Source: Gloeophyllum trabeum ATCC 11539
Taxonomy: Eukaryota > Basidiomycota > Agaricomycetes > Gloeophyllales > Gloeophyllaceae
Direction: 5' to 3'
Length of the DNA stretch: 53,740 nucleotides
NCBI RefSeq assembly: GCF_000344685.1
Contig: NW_006920422.1
Span: 1,052,325-1,106,064, forward strand
The notes below the pieces were generated by a model. The model saw only the letters and a list, made by a program, of their open reading frames with translations, made no database searches and was not told the DNA's origin. A program made the position numbers and the translations under genes. This document shows positions 4,626 to 33,517 of the stretch, one piece after another; position 1 is the stretch's first letter, and the number at the start of each line of letters is the position of its first letter.

Positions 4626-7600
4626 CTACAGACGTAGTGCATAGAAATCGCGTGGCTGGAATTCATAAAAGGTTGCAACATCCAGCCACCGGTTCAAGAT
4701 AAATGACTTACAGTTCTCCACAGCAATGTCAGCAGTCCATGCACGATTGCACTCCGTCCCGAACTTAGGGATCAAGTGACAACTATGTACGATCCGGCTA
4801 ATCGGAATGATCTCCGCATTACGCTGCCCACCACGGCGTGTTGAGCGGGATACGGAATGTGTGTATGTTAGTGGATCTTGCGCGCTGAACAGTGTCATCC
4901 ATTCAACATATGCTAAGTCCACTGGCTGCCGAGGATGATACCTGAGGTATTCCGGCAGCTGGAACAAGAGCCGCACCTGAGCCACTTGGAGACCTAGCAA
5001 ATAGATTAGAAGATAATATAAGATGGATCCGGACTGTCAACATACCTTCCAGGAAGGTTCCAGCTGTATGAGGGTTCAATGATGACACACCCTCCACCCG
5101 AACTAGAGCCATGTCGAAATGTCCGGGGATGAGGGCTGTCCCTCGTTTTGCGCGCTTTGCAGGAACAGCGCGCACCTTGTCCCGAAGCTTAAGTGCATTC
5201 GTAATCACCAGGACCCTGGGCCGCACAATTGTAACTTGTTTGTACACGTCAAAGCGATCAACACCGTCAGGAGATAACAGGTGTCGAGCGTCGGCAGGAC
5301 GCATCTTGTTCAGGTAGACACTCAGCGCATCCAGGAAGAACTCGGCCTTGTAGTCTCGCTGAATACAGTTGACAGTTACCGATGGGACGCTGGGGTGTCG
5401 AGGAAGGGATAGCTGGTGATCAAGGTACGTCGCAACCGCCAGTCGTGGTGCAGCTGGAGCGCGCGCGAGTCGTTCATCACTGTCCGACTCATCCTCCAGC
5501 TCTGAGTCTGATTCGTCAGCAGCCTCACCATGACTGGTGTCGACATCCGAGTTCATGTCCTCATCACTTGAATCCTGAGCCACGAGAGGGCCGGCTATCG
5601 CCCACCTGATATACTTGTCGAACTCCGTGACTGCCTCTTGCCGCGAAAGCCAGTGCGCCATCTGCTCCGTGTAGTCACGCTTGTTGCTTGCGCGATAAGC
5701 ATCCTTCGCGTAGTCGATGTGTAGCCGCTCCGGCGATTCCGTATTGTAGCCATCGCAAGAACCAAGAAGTCGAATGGCCGCCTGGTAGTGTAGCATCGAG
5801 TGTAGCTTTGGTATGTTGAAGTGGTCTCGCCGTCCTAGGGTTATAAAGATGTCCTTGTACTCATGAAAGTCCGCCAGTGCTTGTTCCATGCGTCCCAGGC
5901 TTTCCGAAGTATGCTGATGGAATGATGCGAAGTAAATGAAGTCAACAACCGCACGTGCCGCCTGTAGCGCTCGAGGTTGAATAGCGCCACTTAGCATTGG
6001 TACGAAAACCTTCTCCATTTCCTTATGTTCGGTCCCAGTCCACTGCGAAACAAATGGTATCCCATTTTTGAAGTGCCGCACTGAGTGATGCCGTGCCATG
6101 GCCTTGTACTGCGAATCGACTTCCTCTTCATCAAGGATGCGGACGCACCACTGGACGAGGTGATCTTTGGAGACCCCCTTATGGAGCTGGTGCAACAGAT
6201 CTGGGGTGAAGCAGGAGAATATGTCGCAGTGAGGGAGTTCGGCCCAGAAGGGTTCATAGACAGGTCGCAGACCTTTGTCTTGGAAAGCTATCACACGTCG
6301 TCCCGTAGAGTGATGTTTGAGGATTGTAATGGTGCGTCCTGCGTTTCTTGATGGGATATCGAAGTTCATCTCACCGTGTTTGTCTGGCGGCACTCGGCAC
6401 TTCGGACAGAAGTTTTCCTTGCAGCATGCCACAAGGCACTGCTCGGGATGGTCAGCGACGTATGCAGCCAGGATGGGGTGAACGCGCCGGACATAGCCAT
6501 CCAAACCGTTGCGTCCAGCCTCAATCAGCGGCTCGAGGAGGCAAGCCATACATTCATGAAAGAGTCGATAACCGGCCAACGATCGCATTTTTTCAGACAT
6601 ACAGTCGAGTTTGGCAACGGGCAAGTATCCTATCAGGACTGTGGCATGGGCATTTGTCTGTGGCCACGTCGCCTTGTCGATATTTCCAATTGTCAGGTAA
6701 ACCGGCCATGCGGACTTATCCCCCCGGAATTGTGAGAGCTTTGTCTTGTCAGAGGACAGAATGAGCGGCGCTATTGTAGCCCCTTTGGGCAATCGCTCCT
6801 ATGGGAAGTATTTCAGTGTGAGAATGGAAAACCAGGAACAGGGATGGCGCCATACCTGGACCTTCCACCACCAATCGGCTGTCCACATCTCGTCCAAAAT
6901 TCATATGTGCCCTCTCTCATCTTGATATACTCGTTCCGGTGCGTACGCCATGACATCCCGGAATGTCGGATCCCCCATCAGCTCACGGACACATTCAACA
7001 GGATCTTGCGACCACAGCTCAACCTCCTCCTTCATAAACTCCCCGTCTTCATCCTTTCTATCCCCGGCGATCTTGACTGTGTGACAGGCCCAGTTCACAG
7101 CCTTCGTCGGCAATCCATCAAGCTGTCATTGAAACACTCGATTGTTATGGAATGTCGGGGCTATTCGCTCCTGGATCTAGGTATTAATACGTAAGGTTAG
7201 AGTTCAAACAATCATCTTCTCAGCTCTTACTCACGATGGAAAGCTTAAGAAACTCCTCCGTGGCCGTTTGGCCCACATGTGTTGCTAACCATTGCGCCAA
7301 CTCCCACTCCTGCTCGTCTGCAAATGGATCGTACAAACCTGCGCCCCGTGCCTTCTGGTCTCCCAAGATGTCCTCGAATTTCGTAGGAGCCCTATCAGGA
7401 TATACCGCACCAGCGCACCCTGCTTCAGGATATGCTTCGGCATACCGCCCATAAGAAGATGGCGGTTTGTCGCCCTCATCTTCTACCTCCTCGACTCGAG
7501 CACGACGATCCCCGCTAGCCTCGGGTGCATTGCCATGGTCCGCAGGCTCCGGTGAGTCTGCATAGTGTACCTCGGGAACATCTTCTAGCTCAGAATCTGA

Positions 7601-27128: not shown

Positions 27129-27545
27129 GTCCATCACTGTGCAAAAGTACGTACCCATCAAGCACCGCCATACGGCCGACCTTATTCATGCATTTTTTTT
27201 TCCTCGGAGCAGCCTCATTTCGTTGAATGTCTCGAGCAAAAGTTGGTATTTTCTGGGTCACGGGTCTCTAGCGTTGTCGTTGTTGTCATCCGCACTTTCG
27301 AATGGTCTTTATCGTACTCTTTCGTCGCATCGCAGTTGTCATGTTTTTCGTGTTCGGCGCATAATACAACGTTTGTATGGGTTTTATACGGCCAAGTGGT
27401 CGCTTGGACACGGAAGCTCGACGCGTCTGGCTAATGAGACGCGTCGCGATCGAGAGATAGATCACATGATCATGACAGCTGCTAATGCATACTGACTGAC
27501 GTCATAGGCCCTCGACTATAACGCGTCCCACAATAACATGCAGAC
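27129..27545. other. Hydrophobin 3' flank
   Basis: About 420 bp up to the target duplication of the transposon. It holds two GACGCGTC palindromes (27420-27427 and 27438-27445) and an ACGCGTCC at 27521. No gene seen. Confidence 0.4.
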
Positions 27546-27553
27546 TGTTATTC
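27546..27553 (+). repeat. Target-site duplication, left copy
   Basis: TGTTATTC directly before the left inverted repeat. The identical 8 bp follows the right inverted repeat at 33510-33517. Confidence 0.9.
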
Positions 27554-27567
27554 CAAGAGGGGTGCAA
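27554..27567 (+). repeat. Left terminal inverted repeat
   Basis: CAAGAGGGGTGCAA, 14 bp, perfectly inverted at 33496-33509. The inner block CACCGACC follows at 27583-27590. Confidence 0.9.
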
Positions 27568-27846
27568 AACCAGAATTTCGGACACCGACCTCCAACTTTC
27601 CAGGACCCCCGGAAAGGGGGTAGGGGGGAGCCCCCCTTCCGTGTATAGACGCGGCGAACAGCGGCAGAAGCACGATTACACCCAATAAGGACGATCGCGA
27701 TTCACCCATCGACGCGTCAATTAGCACGACGCGTCTCGAGACTGTACGAGGAACAAAGTGTTTCCAGCAGCAGAATGCAAGTAAACTGTCATGTATTAGC
27801 GGTGATGCTAAGATATTGATAATTACGATACGGATAAAAGTCGTTG

Positions 27847-30800
27847 TTATGTTATACGTTGTTTCTTCGCATTAGACTTCCTTCCACTGCCGCTCGCCGC
27901 GCGTTTGGGGACGGTCATGCGAGACGACATAAGAGAGGTGTTGTCCGTGGGGACTTCTAGTTTTTGCGGTATCTTTTCAGCCGGGATGCCAATTCGTCTC
28001 TCCTCTTCGAATGATATGAACATGTCCGAAGCCATCTTGACAGGTAGTGGGGCTCCATCCCCTACGCCAAAGCTTGACTCAAAGCCAGGATGAGCGGTGC
28101 AAATATGCTCAGTCATGTTGTACTTCCAGATTGCAGTCATCCGGTCAGGATGTTCTACTCTGCACCCAAGCTGGCAGAGTATTGGTGTGTTGGTAGAGGC
28201 TGTTGTGTCGGTAGATTTCAGGCTTGCAGCATAAGCATACTTCTGGAAATACTGGCAATTCGAGACAGCTTGTGGGTTCTTGTTCTTCCCCTTGGGCTTT
28301 GTCAGAAATACCTCGCTACAGGACGTGAGGCCAGAACAGCCACAAATCCCACAAGGCATACTGTCACCGACCTAGGATAGCATGATCAAGTTGTCATATG
28401 GGTAACCTGCCAGTGCGGCGACTATTGACTCACAGCTTCACCTGGAAAGTCTTCCATAATCCCTCTTAGTGCTTTCAGAACATGGATCCCGACATGAGCT
28501 CGGGCCTTGCTAAGGTCCATTTCAACATGGCAATGACAGCAGCGAAACTTCAGACGTGACTTGTCGCATTCAACTTCAAGGCGAGCAGACGCTTCATTGG
28601 AGACTAGAGCCGGGTTGCCTGCGAGAAAATGGCTCGTGAAGACATGTAAATCACTAGCTGAGAGAACACGCACCATTGTGATCCTTGTAGGGGAAGGATG
28701 TGTTAGTGCGAAACACGGGTAATGATGCGAGTGCTTTGTGGCGTTCCACAGATTCCCAGAGACGAGCAATCAGGATCGCCATCTGGGCATCGGTCAGTTC
28801 ATATGTCAGACCAGCCGCATTGAGGTTCGAGAGGTCAAGTTCCGGGTTGAGAGATTTGAAGCGGCTCGAGCAAACAAGATGTGGATTGAGCAGCTCGCAA
28901 AGGTGGCTACAGACCTTGACTACCAGTGTCTTGCGGGATGTCTTTCCTGCAGGCGTCGGGTTATTCTGATTGAGTGCGAGTCGAGCGAAGTCGCCGTTCC
29001 ATAGCCACGTATAAGGTGTATTTGCATTTTCTGATTCTGCCGGAACGTTAACTGAACTATGTGGCATATCCGAAGACAGGTCGGACACAGCAACAATGTT
29101 GTCCGGCGACACTGCCATCTTCATGCCGAGAACTTGACCAACTAGCTTGATCTTTGATACCCCGTGGCTAAGAGAAGCTCGCTTGGCCGTCTCGACAACT
29201 TTCCCATTCTGCTCGATAGCAATGAGCTTGAGAATGGCCACTGATACTGTTGACTCGCAAGCGATAAGCGTCACAAAGAGGTCTCCTGGGGTGATCAATC
29301 CCGGATCCAGGAGGTTGTCTGTGTTGAAGTTTCGTGGCTTGACATCCGATGTAAAGCAGCGAACCCGTAATAGCCGCTCATGAGACTTCCGTGCATAGTT
29401 GGGTGTAATCACCATCCGACAAATGGATGCTTTATGTATCTTTTTCCCATTGTGCTCTATCCAGGGAGAGACAACAGAGACATTAGCCGGAGAGGGAAGT
29501 GGTTCCTCATCAAGATCATCGAGAGCATCATCAAGGCTAAGGCCATCGGCAGAGACATCCTCTGTCCTGCAAGAGTCTGCAGAAACACCATCTATGACAA
29601 CGCTGGCTGGTAGTACCCCAGCTGCAACGATTTCGGCGTCATCCATCTCGGTAACTATTGCCTCATTGTCATCACGAGGATCGCCCGCAGTTTCTTTGGG
29701 GTCTAAGGTAGTGGCATCTTGATCCGGTGTTAGAGATTCAGCAGGGATAGCTTGCGCACCAGATACCGGCTCAAGAGACCGGTCCAAATCGGTCGCAATG
29801 CCAGGGTAGTGTCCGTCACCGAATGGCTTAAGCATGTCAAGCTTCAGACCATCATTATCGGCATTTGTCTGAAATAGAGCATCAAAATCTTCAACAACAT
29901 TGATCTTCTGCAAGACTGCCAGAGCAGCAGTGCGTCCAGAGGTCCAGGCAGACTCGAAATCCACGTTGTTAACAATAGCATTCCCCTTCCAGGCCTCTGG
30001 ATTGAGGTGGTCAGCATGTGCAGCTCGTGCAACACCAAGACGTCGGCTTCCTTCGTCAAGTTCACGATTACGGACAAAGATGGCATCCAGGTCCACTGCT
30101 CCCGCAAGGCGATCAATCAGCTGTTTGAAGGTAAAGTTCGGGTTATGACCAATCTGCATACGGACACGTCCGAAGAGCACCTCAAGTCGATCATCGCCAG
30201 TAAGGAAGAGGAAGAATGGTTTTGTCCCATCAAGCTCTTTCTGCTTGGCTATACAGACATATATGTCATGGATGGTCTTCATCATGTCCCCGTAGAGCTG
30301 GTTAGGCATAAAGCTAACACGGTTTTGACGGAATAAGACAATGGCCATATGAGCATACTTGCTAAGTGAAGAAAGCTGCTGCTGGAGACTCCAGTCGGTC
30401 CTGATAAATGCATCAAGAAATGCACCAAATGTTTCACCAATGACCTCGATTATTTGAAGCTCCTGGAGATCAAGAGGGGAGAGTTCTGAGGGTGAAACAG
30501 AAGGTAATATGGAGACGGTATCTATGAGATCAATAGCACGGGGAACATCTTGAGAGTCAGCAGGGTTCATGATCTGTTGGACGCGATATTCAGTCATGTC
30601 CGGTGCCCGAAGGAGATGGCGAGCGAGTGTATCATTCTTGATGACCGTATTACCAACTTGTAGTCCATCTACAGTTCGTAATAGACGGGCAATGCCTTTA
30701 GACAAGAACATTGAGACAGTACCTACATGACAGAATAAGGCACATACGCTTCAACTCATGCTTCCAGTCAAATGTGCCAGTTACATCATCATCACCGACA

Positions 30801-33119
30801 CAGAGGTTGAAACCAGGGAGACGTCCAAGATATTTATACAATACATGTCCGGGCTTGACAACATGCTTTGAGAACAGTTCATGGACCATTGCGCGCCGCC
30901 CGGCATCACCATCAGAGGCAAATGTCCAGATCGGCCCAAAATGACGTTCACCAACATTCTTCCACGCAGACAGGACCTTCTCGAGCAGAACTGCAGATTC
31001 TTGAGGTGTCTCCTTCTTGCAGGTAGGGGAAATCAAGACCGGAAACGCGCCACGTAAGTCAGTCCCGAAAGACCCAATGGCCATAACGGAAGCTTCCTTG
31101 CCGTAATGGACGGTTCCATCGGCGAGAGCGTGAGCCAGGGATTCTGCAGCCTCAAGGGAGGTGAGCCTAATGTTGACATCCTGAGAATGCTCACGACAAA
31201 GCCCCCCAACGCAATCAGCGTGAGGGAAGTAGCAAGCGACATTCTCTTCGTTGATCTCATCCCACATGATTGACATACCGGTATGGAACAGTTGCACCTT
31301 GTCCACTGGCAAAGTATCGATACGAGACTTGACAAGCTGTGCCATATTAAATTCTATTTCAGCCTCCTTTGGCGCACCAAAGCTGGGCATCAATTGAGTG
31401 AATATCTTCATGGTCCGGAGTCGCCTGATAGATGGAATAACACAGCGGTGACTCAGCGCGTACAGCAGTTTACGACCACCAAGCCGGTAAGCAAGGAGGG
31501 ACATATCAGCATCAGCTTCTGTATAACCCCGAGCCTGGTAGATTCCTTCTAGGGCGTCTTGAACCTTCCCGACAATGCGCCCGATACTGCATTTATCCCT
31601 GATGGCCTGCCGTAGGAGTTGCTGAAAGCGTGGAACATCTTTCGTAGCTGCAAGCATTAGGAACCGCTTCCAGTCCTCAACTTTACTCAGGAGCCGGGCA
31701 CATCTTCGCCCTAGGTCCAGCGTCTGAAGGGCAGATGCGTAAGTATCTGGTGCTAGCCTCAAGAAAACGGCTGACCTTCAGTTTCCAGAATGAAATTGTC
31801 TTGTCCCGGTCCTTCAACAGCTCTCGCAGCTGCAGATGCGTCAAATAGGAATGGTTCGTATGAGGTTGCGCATTTCGCGCCATATTCGCCAGCCGCCCGA
31901 CTTCACCCTTGATCATCCCACAGTCAAAGCAAAACCCCCGGGAATCACTCAGGCTTTTAATACCAGTACAACTATCAGCACGTACACGAAACTTGACACC
32001 GTTCTTTTCGACTGCACAGAAGCTGTATCCAATAGCCTTGAGTGAGAAGCCGTGCCTCTGGAAGGGATAAGACTCGAAGAAATTATCTTCGGGCCAGTCC
32101 AGCTCGATACCCTGGCAGCAGTGCGATTGTGGTGAAGCATCCATGAGCGCAGCTACATCTCTATCTGGAATCGTTGCATACGTGCCTTGAGGGACGATAT
32201 TTTCGCTATCAGAATCCAAGTCGCTAATTAGATATAATCAGTGAATCGTAATGGCTGATTGGCAAAAGATGAGAATGTACCTGTTTAACCAGGCTGGTGT
32301 TGCATTCTCGACAGTCCATGGAGTGATGTTATCCATAAAGACAAAGGGCAGAGGAGATCGAGAGGCTGTACTGCGACCGAGAGAAGTGCTGGACCCTGGG
32401 TGTTGCGGAAAGCATGTTTCCCGCCTCTCACGCGCTCGGGCAATCTCGGCTGTCTGGTCAAGAGCTTTACATTTCCTACCACGCTGATGGGTTGTAAGCC
32501 AGGTGGTGCTTCGAGTCGTAGCTCCAGTCCGGACCCATTTGTTGCAACGGGTGCAGCAGACTTCCCACTTTTTGTCAAATAGTCTCCAATGGTAGTTTTC
32601 AGGATCAGGCAGGAATTGGGGTGCATATATTGAGGCCAGCTGACCTGGGAGCTCAGACTCTTGAGTGTAGGATTGAACAAAGCTGTCGACTAGAGTCGGG
32701 GTAGGGCTAAGCGGCTGTTGGAATGAACCTTCTGTGACATGGGCAGGTATATGTGTTGGAAACTGATGATGCGAAGGGAGAGAAGACCAGTCAGCACTCG
32801 TATCATCCCAGCTAGGGATAGGCAATTGTGCAGAAGTGTTCGGAACATTTTCTCTGCGCCGGGGAGTACTTGGGCCACCGAGAGGACTTAGGGATGGGTC
32901 TGCTTGCCTCGCCTGCTCAGACACATGAAATAAGCAAGTTTGATGTCCAAAGGAGTCTTGCTCCAGAGTAAATGGGGAGGGCTGCAAGAAGTTACCTGGC
33001 TGAGAGCCATCCAAATGAGATGGCTCGGAAATATCAGTTTCGGCCCATGTCCCGCCAGTACAACTTCCTGGATCCAGATTAAATATGGCGGATTCCAGTT
33101 CGTAGTCCTCATTCAGCAT
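27847..33119 (-). CDS. Transposase-like protein, possibly P-element/THAP9-related, intact
   Basis: Six exons (33119-32281, 32223-31776, 31723-30748, 30695-28674, 28618-28434, 28371-27847) close in phase to 1,664 aa with no internal stop. A Cys/His cluster near residues 188-217 (CCTRCNKW ... THQRGRKC) resembles a DNA-binding zinc finger. The likely catalytic core has MWDE (Asp about 584), FASDGDAGRR (Asp about 700), FDWKHELKR (Asp about 748, a D-x-x-H-x-x-K motif) and GDDRLEVLFGRVR (Glu about 926). This resembles the D-D-(DPxH)-E layout of P/THAP9 transposases. The C-terminus has two more clusters, CCHCHVEMD ... HVGIH and PCGICGCSGLTSC, then a basic tail (GRKSNAKKQR). It is the only gene of the element. 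Confidence 0.88.
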
Positions 33120-33495
33120 AGTAGAATTTGAACAGCCCGTATCAGAGCCGAGAAGGGTTCGTCTTGCTCAATGCTCGCAATACACGGTGAGCGGCGCTAT
33201 CCCGGTGGCTGTAAATTAGGGACGCGTACATGCACGTGACCCAGGAGCAGGCACGAGTTTATCTCAGAAAGCCTATACTCGCAGATATTCAGTTGAGGAT
33301 AGACCTCAATTGCAAGGTACATCACAAAATCCGTATTACAGTACTACACGTCCTCATGATTTATTAGGGGGATATGGGACACATATCAACGGTGGCACAA
33401 GGATTCAGAGGAAACCGAGCAAAGAGCGTGGACTAGGACCCCGAACACACATATCACCCTTGTCCTAACACTGGTCGGTGTTCCCGATCCATATC

Positions 33496-33509
33496 TTGCA
33501 CCCCTCTTG
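33496..33509 (-). repeat. Right terminal inverted repeat
   Basis: TTGCACCCCTCTTG on the plus strand, the perfect reverse complement of the left end. The inner block (GGTCGGTG on plus) lies at about 33473-33480. Confidence 0.9.
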
Positions 33510-33517
33510 TGTTATTC
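33510..33517 (+). repeat. Target-site duplication, right copy
   Basis: TGTTATTC, identical to 27546-27553. Only 63 bp separate it from the ATG of the methyltransferase gene. Confidence 0.9.

Follow-up and report, generated by a model that had tools for sequence, protein, structure and literature searches.

A putative autonomous P-superfamily transposon of a divergent Agaricomycete lineage in Gloeophyllum trabeum

P elements of Drosophila and THAP9-type P elements of animals generate 8-bp target site duplications and encode a transposase with a helical insertion domain and an RNase H core in which D, D, D(2)H and E follow one another, and they are accompanied by non-coding relatives with common ends (PMC7776569, PMC8230255). 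The superfamily signature is given as D, D and E plus D(2)H after the second D (PMC8230255). In fungi, P-superfamily elements with 8-bp duplications, comprising autonomous and non-autonomous copies, were reported in 2011 from rusts (P-1_PSt, P-1_MLP and P-2_MLP), with the wording 'previously unknown in any Dikarya' (PMC3164196). The transposon activity described from Marasmius oreades (PMC9674265) concerns hAT, Mariner and LINE families. For Agaricomycetes, the open PMC matches listed contained no report of P elements; that search did not extend to Repbase or to the 2017 fungal survey of cut-and-paste transposons (evx261). Here, we describe a 5,956-bp element from Gloeophyllum trabeum ATCC 11539 (genome of 35.5 Mb), located at 27554-33509 of a window, that is, the whole stretch of 53,740 nt that was analysed (NW_006920422.1, positions 1,052,325-1,106,064). 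With a probability of roughly 0.88, it represents an autonomous cut-and-paste DNA transposon that belongs to a divergent P-superfamily branch of Agaricomycetes, sharing the features listed above with the Drosophila and THAP9-type elements. Compared by description only, it also resembles the rust elements in its fungal host, superfamily, 8-bp duplications and the occurrence of both autonomous and non-autonomous elements. Since P elements are known from rusts and no Agaricomycete report was found, we class it with the P superfamily in a broad sense, defined by catalytic core and duplication, rather than among the canonical P elements with a THAP domain.

The element is bracketed by two copies of the octamer TGTTATTC, and its termini are organized as follows:

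27546..27553, no strand: 8-bp target site duplication TGTTATTC, left copy
33510..33517, no strand: 8-bp target site duplication TGTTATTC, right copy
27554..27567, plus strand: 14-bp terminal inverted repeat CAAGAGGGGTGCAA, left
33496..33509, minus strand: 14-bp terminal inverted repeat, right (CAAGAGGGGTGCAA inverted)
27580..27590, plus strand: inner subterminal block GGACACCGACC, left end
33473..33484, minus strand: inner subterminal block GGAACACCGACC, right end, offset by one base from its left counterpart

The coordinates, the duplication and the perfect ends given in a preliminary description of this DNA were all exact on recheck. Both termini are perfectly inverted over 14 bp, compared with 31 bp in the fly P element, then diverge, and then share the inner block with an offset of one base; aligned as an inverted pair without gaps, the ends are 76% complementary over 37 bp. 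The inner blocks are possible transposase-binding sites. Within the window the 14-mer occurs exactly twice, both times flush with the duplication. When up to two mismatches were allowed, 0.33 matches were expected in the window and at least two were obtained in 4 of 100 shuffles. The same 14-mer has 12 exact sites in the whole genome, all of which are ends of seven elements, namely the coding one and six small ones. Allowing one mismatch raised the number to 24, compared with 6 when the pattern was reversed; of the 12 sites with one mismatch, 10 were not at ends of the seven elements. Of the 18 sites of the hexamer ACGCGT in the whole window, five lie within about 310 bp across the left flank and left element end (window 27421-27734).

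The six small elements are non-coding, 463-464 bp long, and carry the same ends as the coding element. Five of them are 96.8-100% identical to one another. Two of these five, both on contig 1, are identical and also share an identical 200-bp right flank, and were therefore counted as a single insertion that was duplicated along with its neighbourhood. As a result, the five correspond to four insertions, all with perfect duplications. Altogether, perfect 8-bp duplications were present in six of the seven elements, equivalent to five independent sites, each with its own octamer; the further copies with different duplications that the preliminary description had proposed to look for thus exist as elements with the same ends. 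The sixth small element (C8:465860-466323, 464 bp) is about 62-67% alike to the others outside gaps, has an unrelated middle and flanking octamers matching at 6 of 8 positions, and had no second copy found in the genome; it is probably an older relative. Its ends and those of the other small elements are shared with the coding element over these stretches:

27554..27671, plus strand: left end common with the non-coding elements, 93-94% identity over about 120 bp
33398..33509, plus strand: right end common with the C8 element at 79%; others 73-74% over up to 150 bp

No match was found between the middles of the small elements and the coding element, and the source of the small elements may be a sister of the coding element, not this exact copy.

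Empty sites were searched by comparing the joined flanks of four insertion sites with the same genome. The small element on C25 (region G000:C25:20380-21451) lies inside a high-copy repeat with at least 49 matches in the genome, and each of the three uninserted repeat copies examined contained a single GTATGTGA without a gap at the junction. The small element on C4 lies inside a lower-copy repeat, of which an uninserted copy on contig 2 crosses the junction with one octamer mismatch. A second uninserted copy of this repeat (G000:C13:626496-627059) shows 5 mismatches to the C4 site; its sole internal indel is a 9-bp deletion beginning inside the octamer, with two more gaps at the extreme end of the similarity. 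This deletion would fit imprecise excision and may be an excision scar, although a single case proves nothing. The C8 flanks were uninformative, matching, besides their own locus, only to about the first 150 bases. The near-identity, the perfect duplications and the two empty sites support recent insertion and possible mobility of the small elements. The preliminary description had called the coding copy itself recent and possibly mobile; this is supported for its small relatives and only indirectly for the coding copy, for which neither a sister copy nor a second, uninserted copy of the site was present in this assembly.

The preliminary description also proposed an intact gene of six exons and a complete transposon, and both were borne out: ends, duplication and gene are all intact. 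The predicted transposase gene reads along the minus strand from its start at 33119 to its stop at 27847 and is free of internal stops over 1,664 codons:

27847..33119, minus strand: predicted transposase gene, 1,664 codons, six exons
32281..33119, minus strand: exon 1, BED-like finger C189-x2-C192-x18-H211-x5-C217
31776..32223, minus strand: exon 2
30748..31723, minus strand: exon 3, proposed catalytic D584 and D700; D748-x2-H751
28674..30695, minus strand: exon 4, helical insertion domain with Q803-x-V805-x2-A808; proposed catalytic E926; beta-rich C-terminal module
28434..28618, minus strand: exon 5, C2H2-like finger C1455/C1458/H1470/H1474
27847..28371, minus strand: exon 6, conserved Cys/His motifs (PCGICG, WKYN..H); gene end

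The five GT-AG introns measure 52-62 nt, with borders picked by us to preserve the reading frame, and the gene model is a sequence-based prediction. By eye, four of the five splice junctions (2-5) fall inside conserved blocks that continue without gaps in mushroom homologues (alignment A1), and junction 1 sits in a weakly conserved region. Unlike the Drosophila and THAP9-type P transposases, the protein reaches 1,664 aa, has a BED-like finger in place of THAP, and ends in a C-terminal part of about 500 residues that combines zinc-finger-like motifs with a beta-rich module.

Homologues were searched for twice among 5.8 billion proteins, which yielded 25 and 48 sequences, 57 of them distinct. 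Organism names were present on 53, all belonging to genera that we take to be Agaricomycetes (five names were confirmed in taxonomy); no rust fungus was among the organisms named in the 48 matches of the family profile. This breadth across many mushrooms, together with the single coding copy found in the genome (a lower bound), is what might be expected of a host gene or domesticated transposase lying by chance between inverted ends. Such an origin is extremely improbable given the 14-bp ends flush with an 8-bp duplication, the six other elements with the same ends, and homologue clusters of several members (4 to 11 in Mycena and Favolaschia, for example, not necessarily from one genome each). 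A distant transposase homologue, about 33% identical and resembling Laccaria and Clavulina homologues by eye, was also observed at G000:C22:82913-86661, with a PHD-like cysteine stretch downstream and no element ends found there.

The fold and profile comparisons place the predicted transposase with the P superfamily, and the earlier view that it could not be placed in a named family is not supported; 'undescribed' holds for the family, within the reach of the searches, and not for its kind. A profile-profile comparison (hhalign), run with controls, matched the family to P transposases at E 3.4e-13, the P profile (A3) comprising 34 of the 120 listed P homologues, selected for length and spread, plus the fly sequence. 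Alignment A4 omits P0014 and P0024, and alignment A5 consists of 28 homologues and the P0005 piece. The predicted structure and the alignment together revealed an RNase H fold with D, D and E and with D(2)H after the second D, as well as a helical insertion domain between the second D and E (helices at model 380-517). Model residues 101-567 aligned structurally with chain 155-565 of the P element, and this match was far above every other solved transposase listed, including Transib/RAG1. Transib elements make 5-bp duplications. The P signature positions line up with P transposases in the same order, as does Q-x-V-x2-A of the insertion domain, and D584, D700 and E926 are proposed to form the active site, which would carry out catalysis. 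These alignments in order and the margin of the P match speak against a separate, undescribed superfamily that would resemble P in its cut-and-paste chemistry and 8-bp duplications but lie outside it as a sister group, with Transib/RAG and hAT as more remote kin. The identity of only about 15% to the P element over the aligned core, the lack of a convincing Pfam family, and accessory parts and a size that differ from P favour such a superfamily, which is possible but unlikely.

Several results weigh against placement in the P superfamily. The fold was predicted on the homologue P0005 (57% identical) instead of the spliced window protein, the family profile matched a single P sequence only at E 0.0079, and the first two proposed catalytic D residues are 116 residues apart versus 73 in the fly protein (fly positions after PMC7776569 and PMC8230255). 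Against Pfam, the window protein gave nothing at E<=1, and none of the 57 homologues had a precomputed Pfam domain. Weak matches to TNP-like_RNaseH_C, a P-element domain, were detected in 4 of 26 aligned members (best E 0.0075), and matches to TNP-like_RNaseH_N, under the curated cut-off, in two of five further members (E 0.041 and 0.058), the scan covering 5 of the 32 proteins new in the second homologue search. The RNaseH_C model run on the genome did not match this transposase gene. No THAP model was among the Pfam matches of the 26 members at E<=1, and a loose THAP-like spacing pattern fitted 3 of 58 proteins, the window protein not among them. Finally, the coding part was found only once, and activity of this copy is putative.

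Duplications of 8 bp are also made by hAT and Zisupton (PMC12730594), and genes of the KDZ, DUF6589 and Plavaka types occur in this genome or window. The protein has the RNase H fold and 8-bp duplications in common with hAT (Hermes). A BED-like finger, as in the mushroom protein, is also known from hAT. The preliminary description had suggested model searches against P, hAT and KDZ/Zisupton: hAT Pfam domains and the KDZ model (PF18758, covering Zisupton, Dileera and Kyakuja) matched neither the window protein nor the 26 members, and P-domain models matched weakly and in homologues only. PF18758 did find KDZ genes elsewhere in the genome, although a very divergent member could slip through the Pfam scan. 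Likewise, PF18759 (Plavaka) and PF20231 (DUF6589, Academ-like) were without match in the same proteins, the former matching another window gene and the latter occurring at other places of the genome. It is very improbable that the element is a hAT, KDZ/Zisupton, Plavaka or DUF6589 transposon. Among the neighbours, an open frame at window 4909-6798 contains a strong Plavaka transposase domain (E 7.7e-87), and another at 1-2304 contains retrotransposon RNase H and integrase zinc-binding domains.

For the P-superfamily transposon, a mechanism can be proposed by analogy with the P element (PMC7776569). The 1,664-aa transposase would bind the inner and outer blocks of the bipartite ends and then pair the ends. 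The element would be cut out by the D584/D700/E926 site on an RNase H fold holding the helical insertion domain, which may use GTP, as its counterpart in the P element is the GTP-binding domain. Joining of the ends to target strands eight bases apart would yield the 8-bp duplications, and the elements of about 464 bp may be moved by this transposase or that of a close sister through their common ends. The duplications and empty sites reveal the outcome of transposition, whereas cutting, GTP use and cross-mobilisation are steps that we infer. An unlikely further version places the family beside P or at its base, as a deeply branching lineage whose transposase would have gained a C-terminal chromatin-reading beta-barrel (chromo-barrel or BAH-like) and zinc fingers that steer insertion to a chromatin state. 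If true, no P-type transposase known to us before would have carried a chromatin reader of its own.

These results explain 57 large 'hypothetical proteins' of mushrooms as likely P-type transposases overlooked by Pfam and would extend to Agaricomycetes a transposon class best known from flies. Furthermore, as the genome offers one intact coding copy and a countable number of non-coding elements that share its ends, it could serve to test outside animals how ends are recognised, whether cross-mobilisation occurs and whether GTP is needed.
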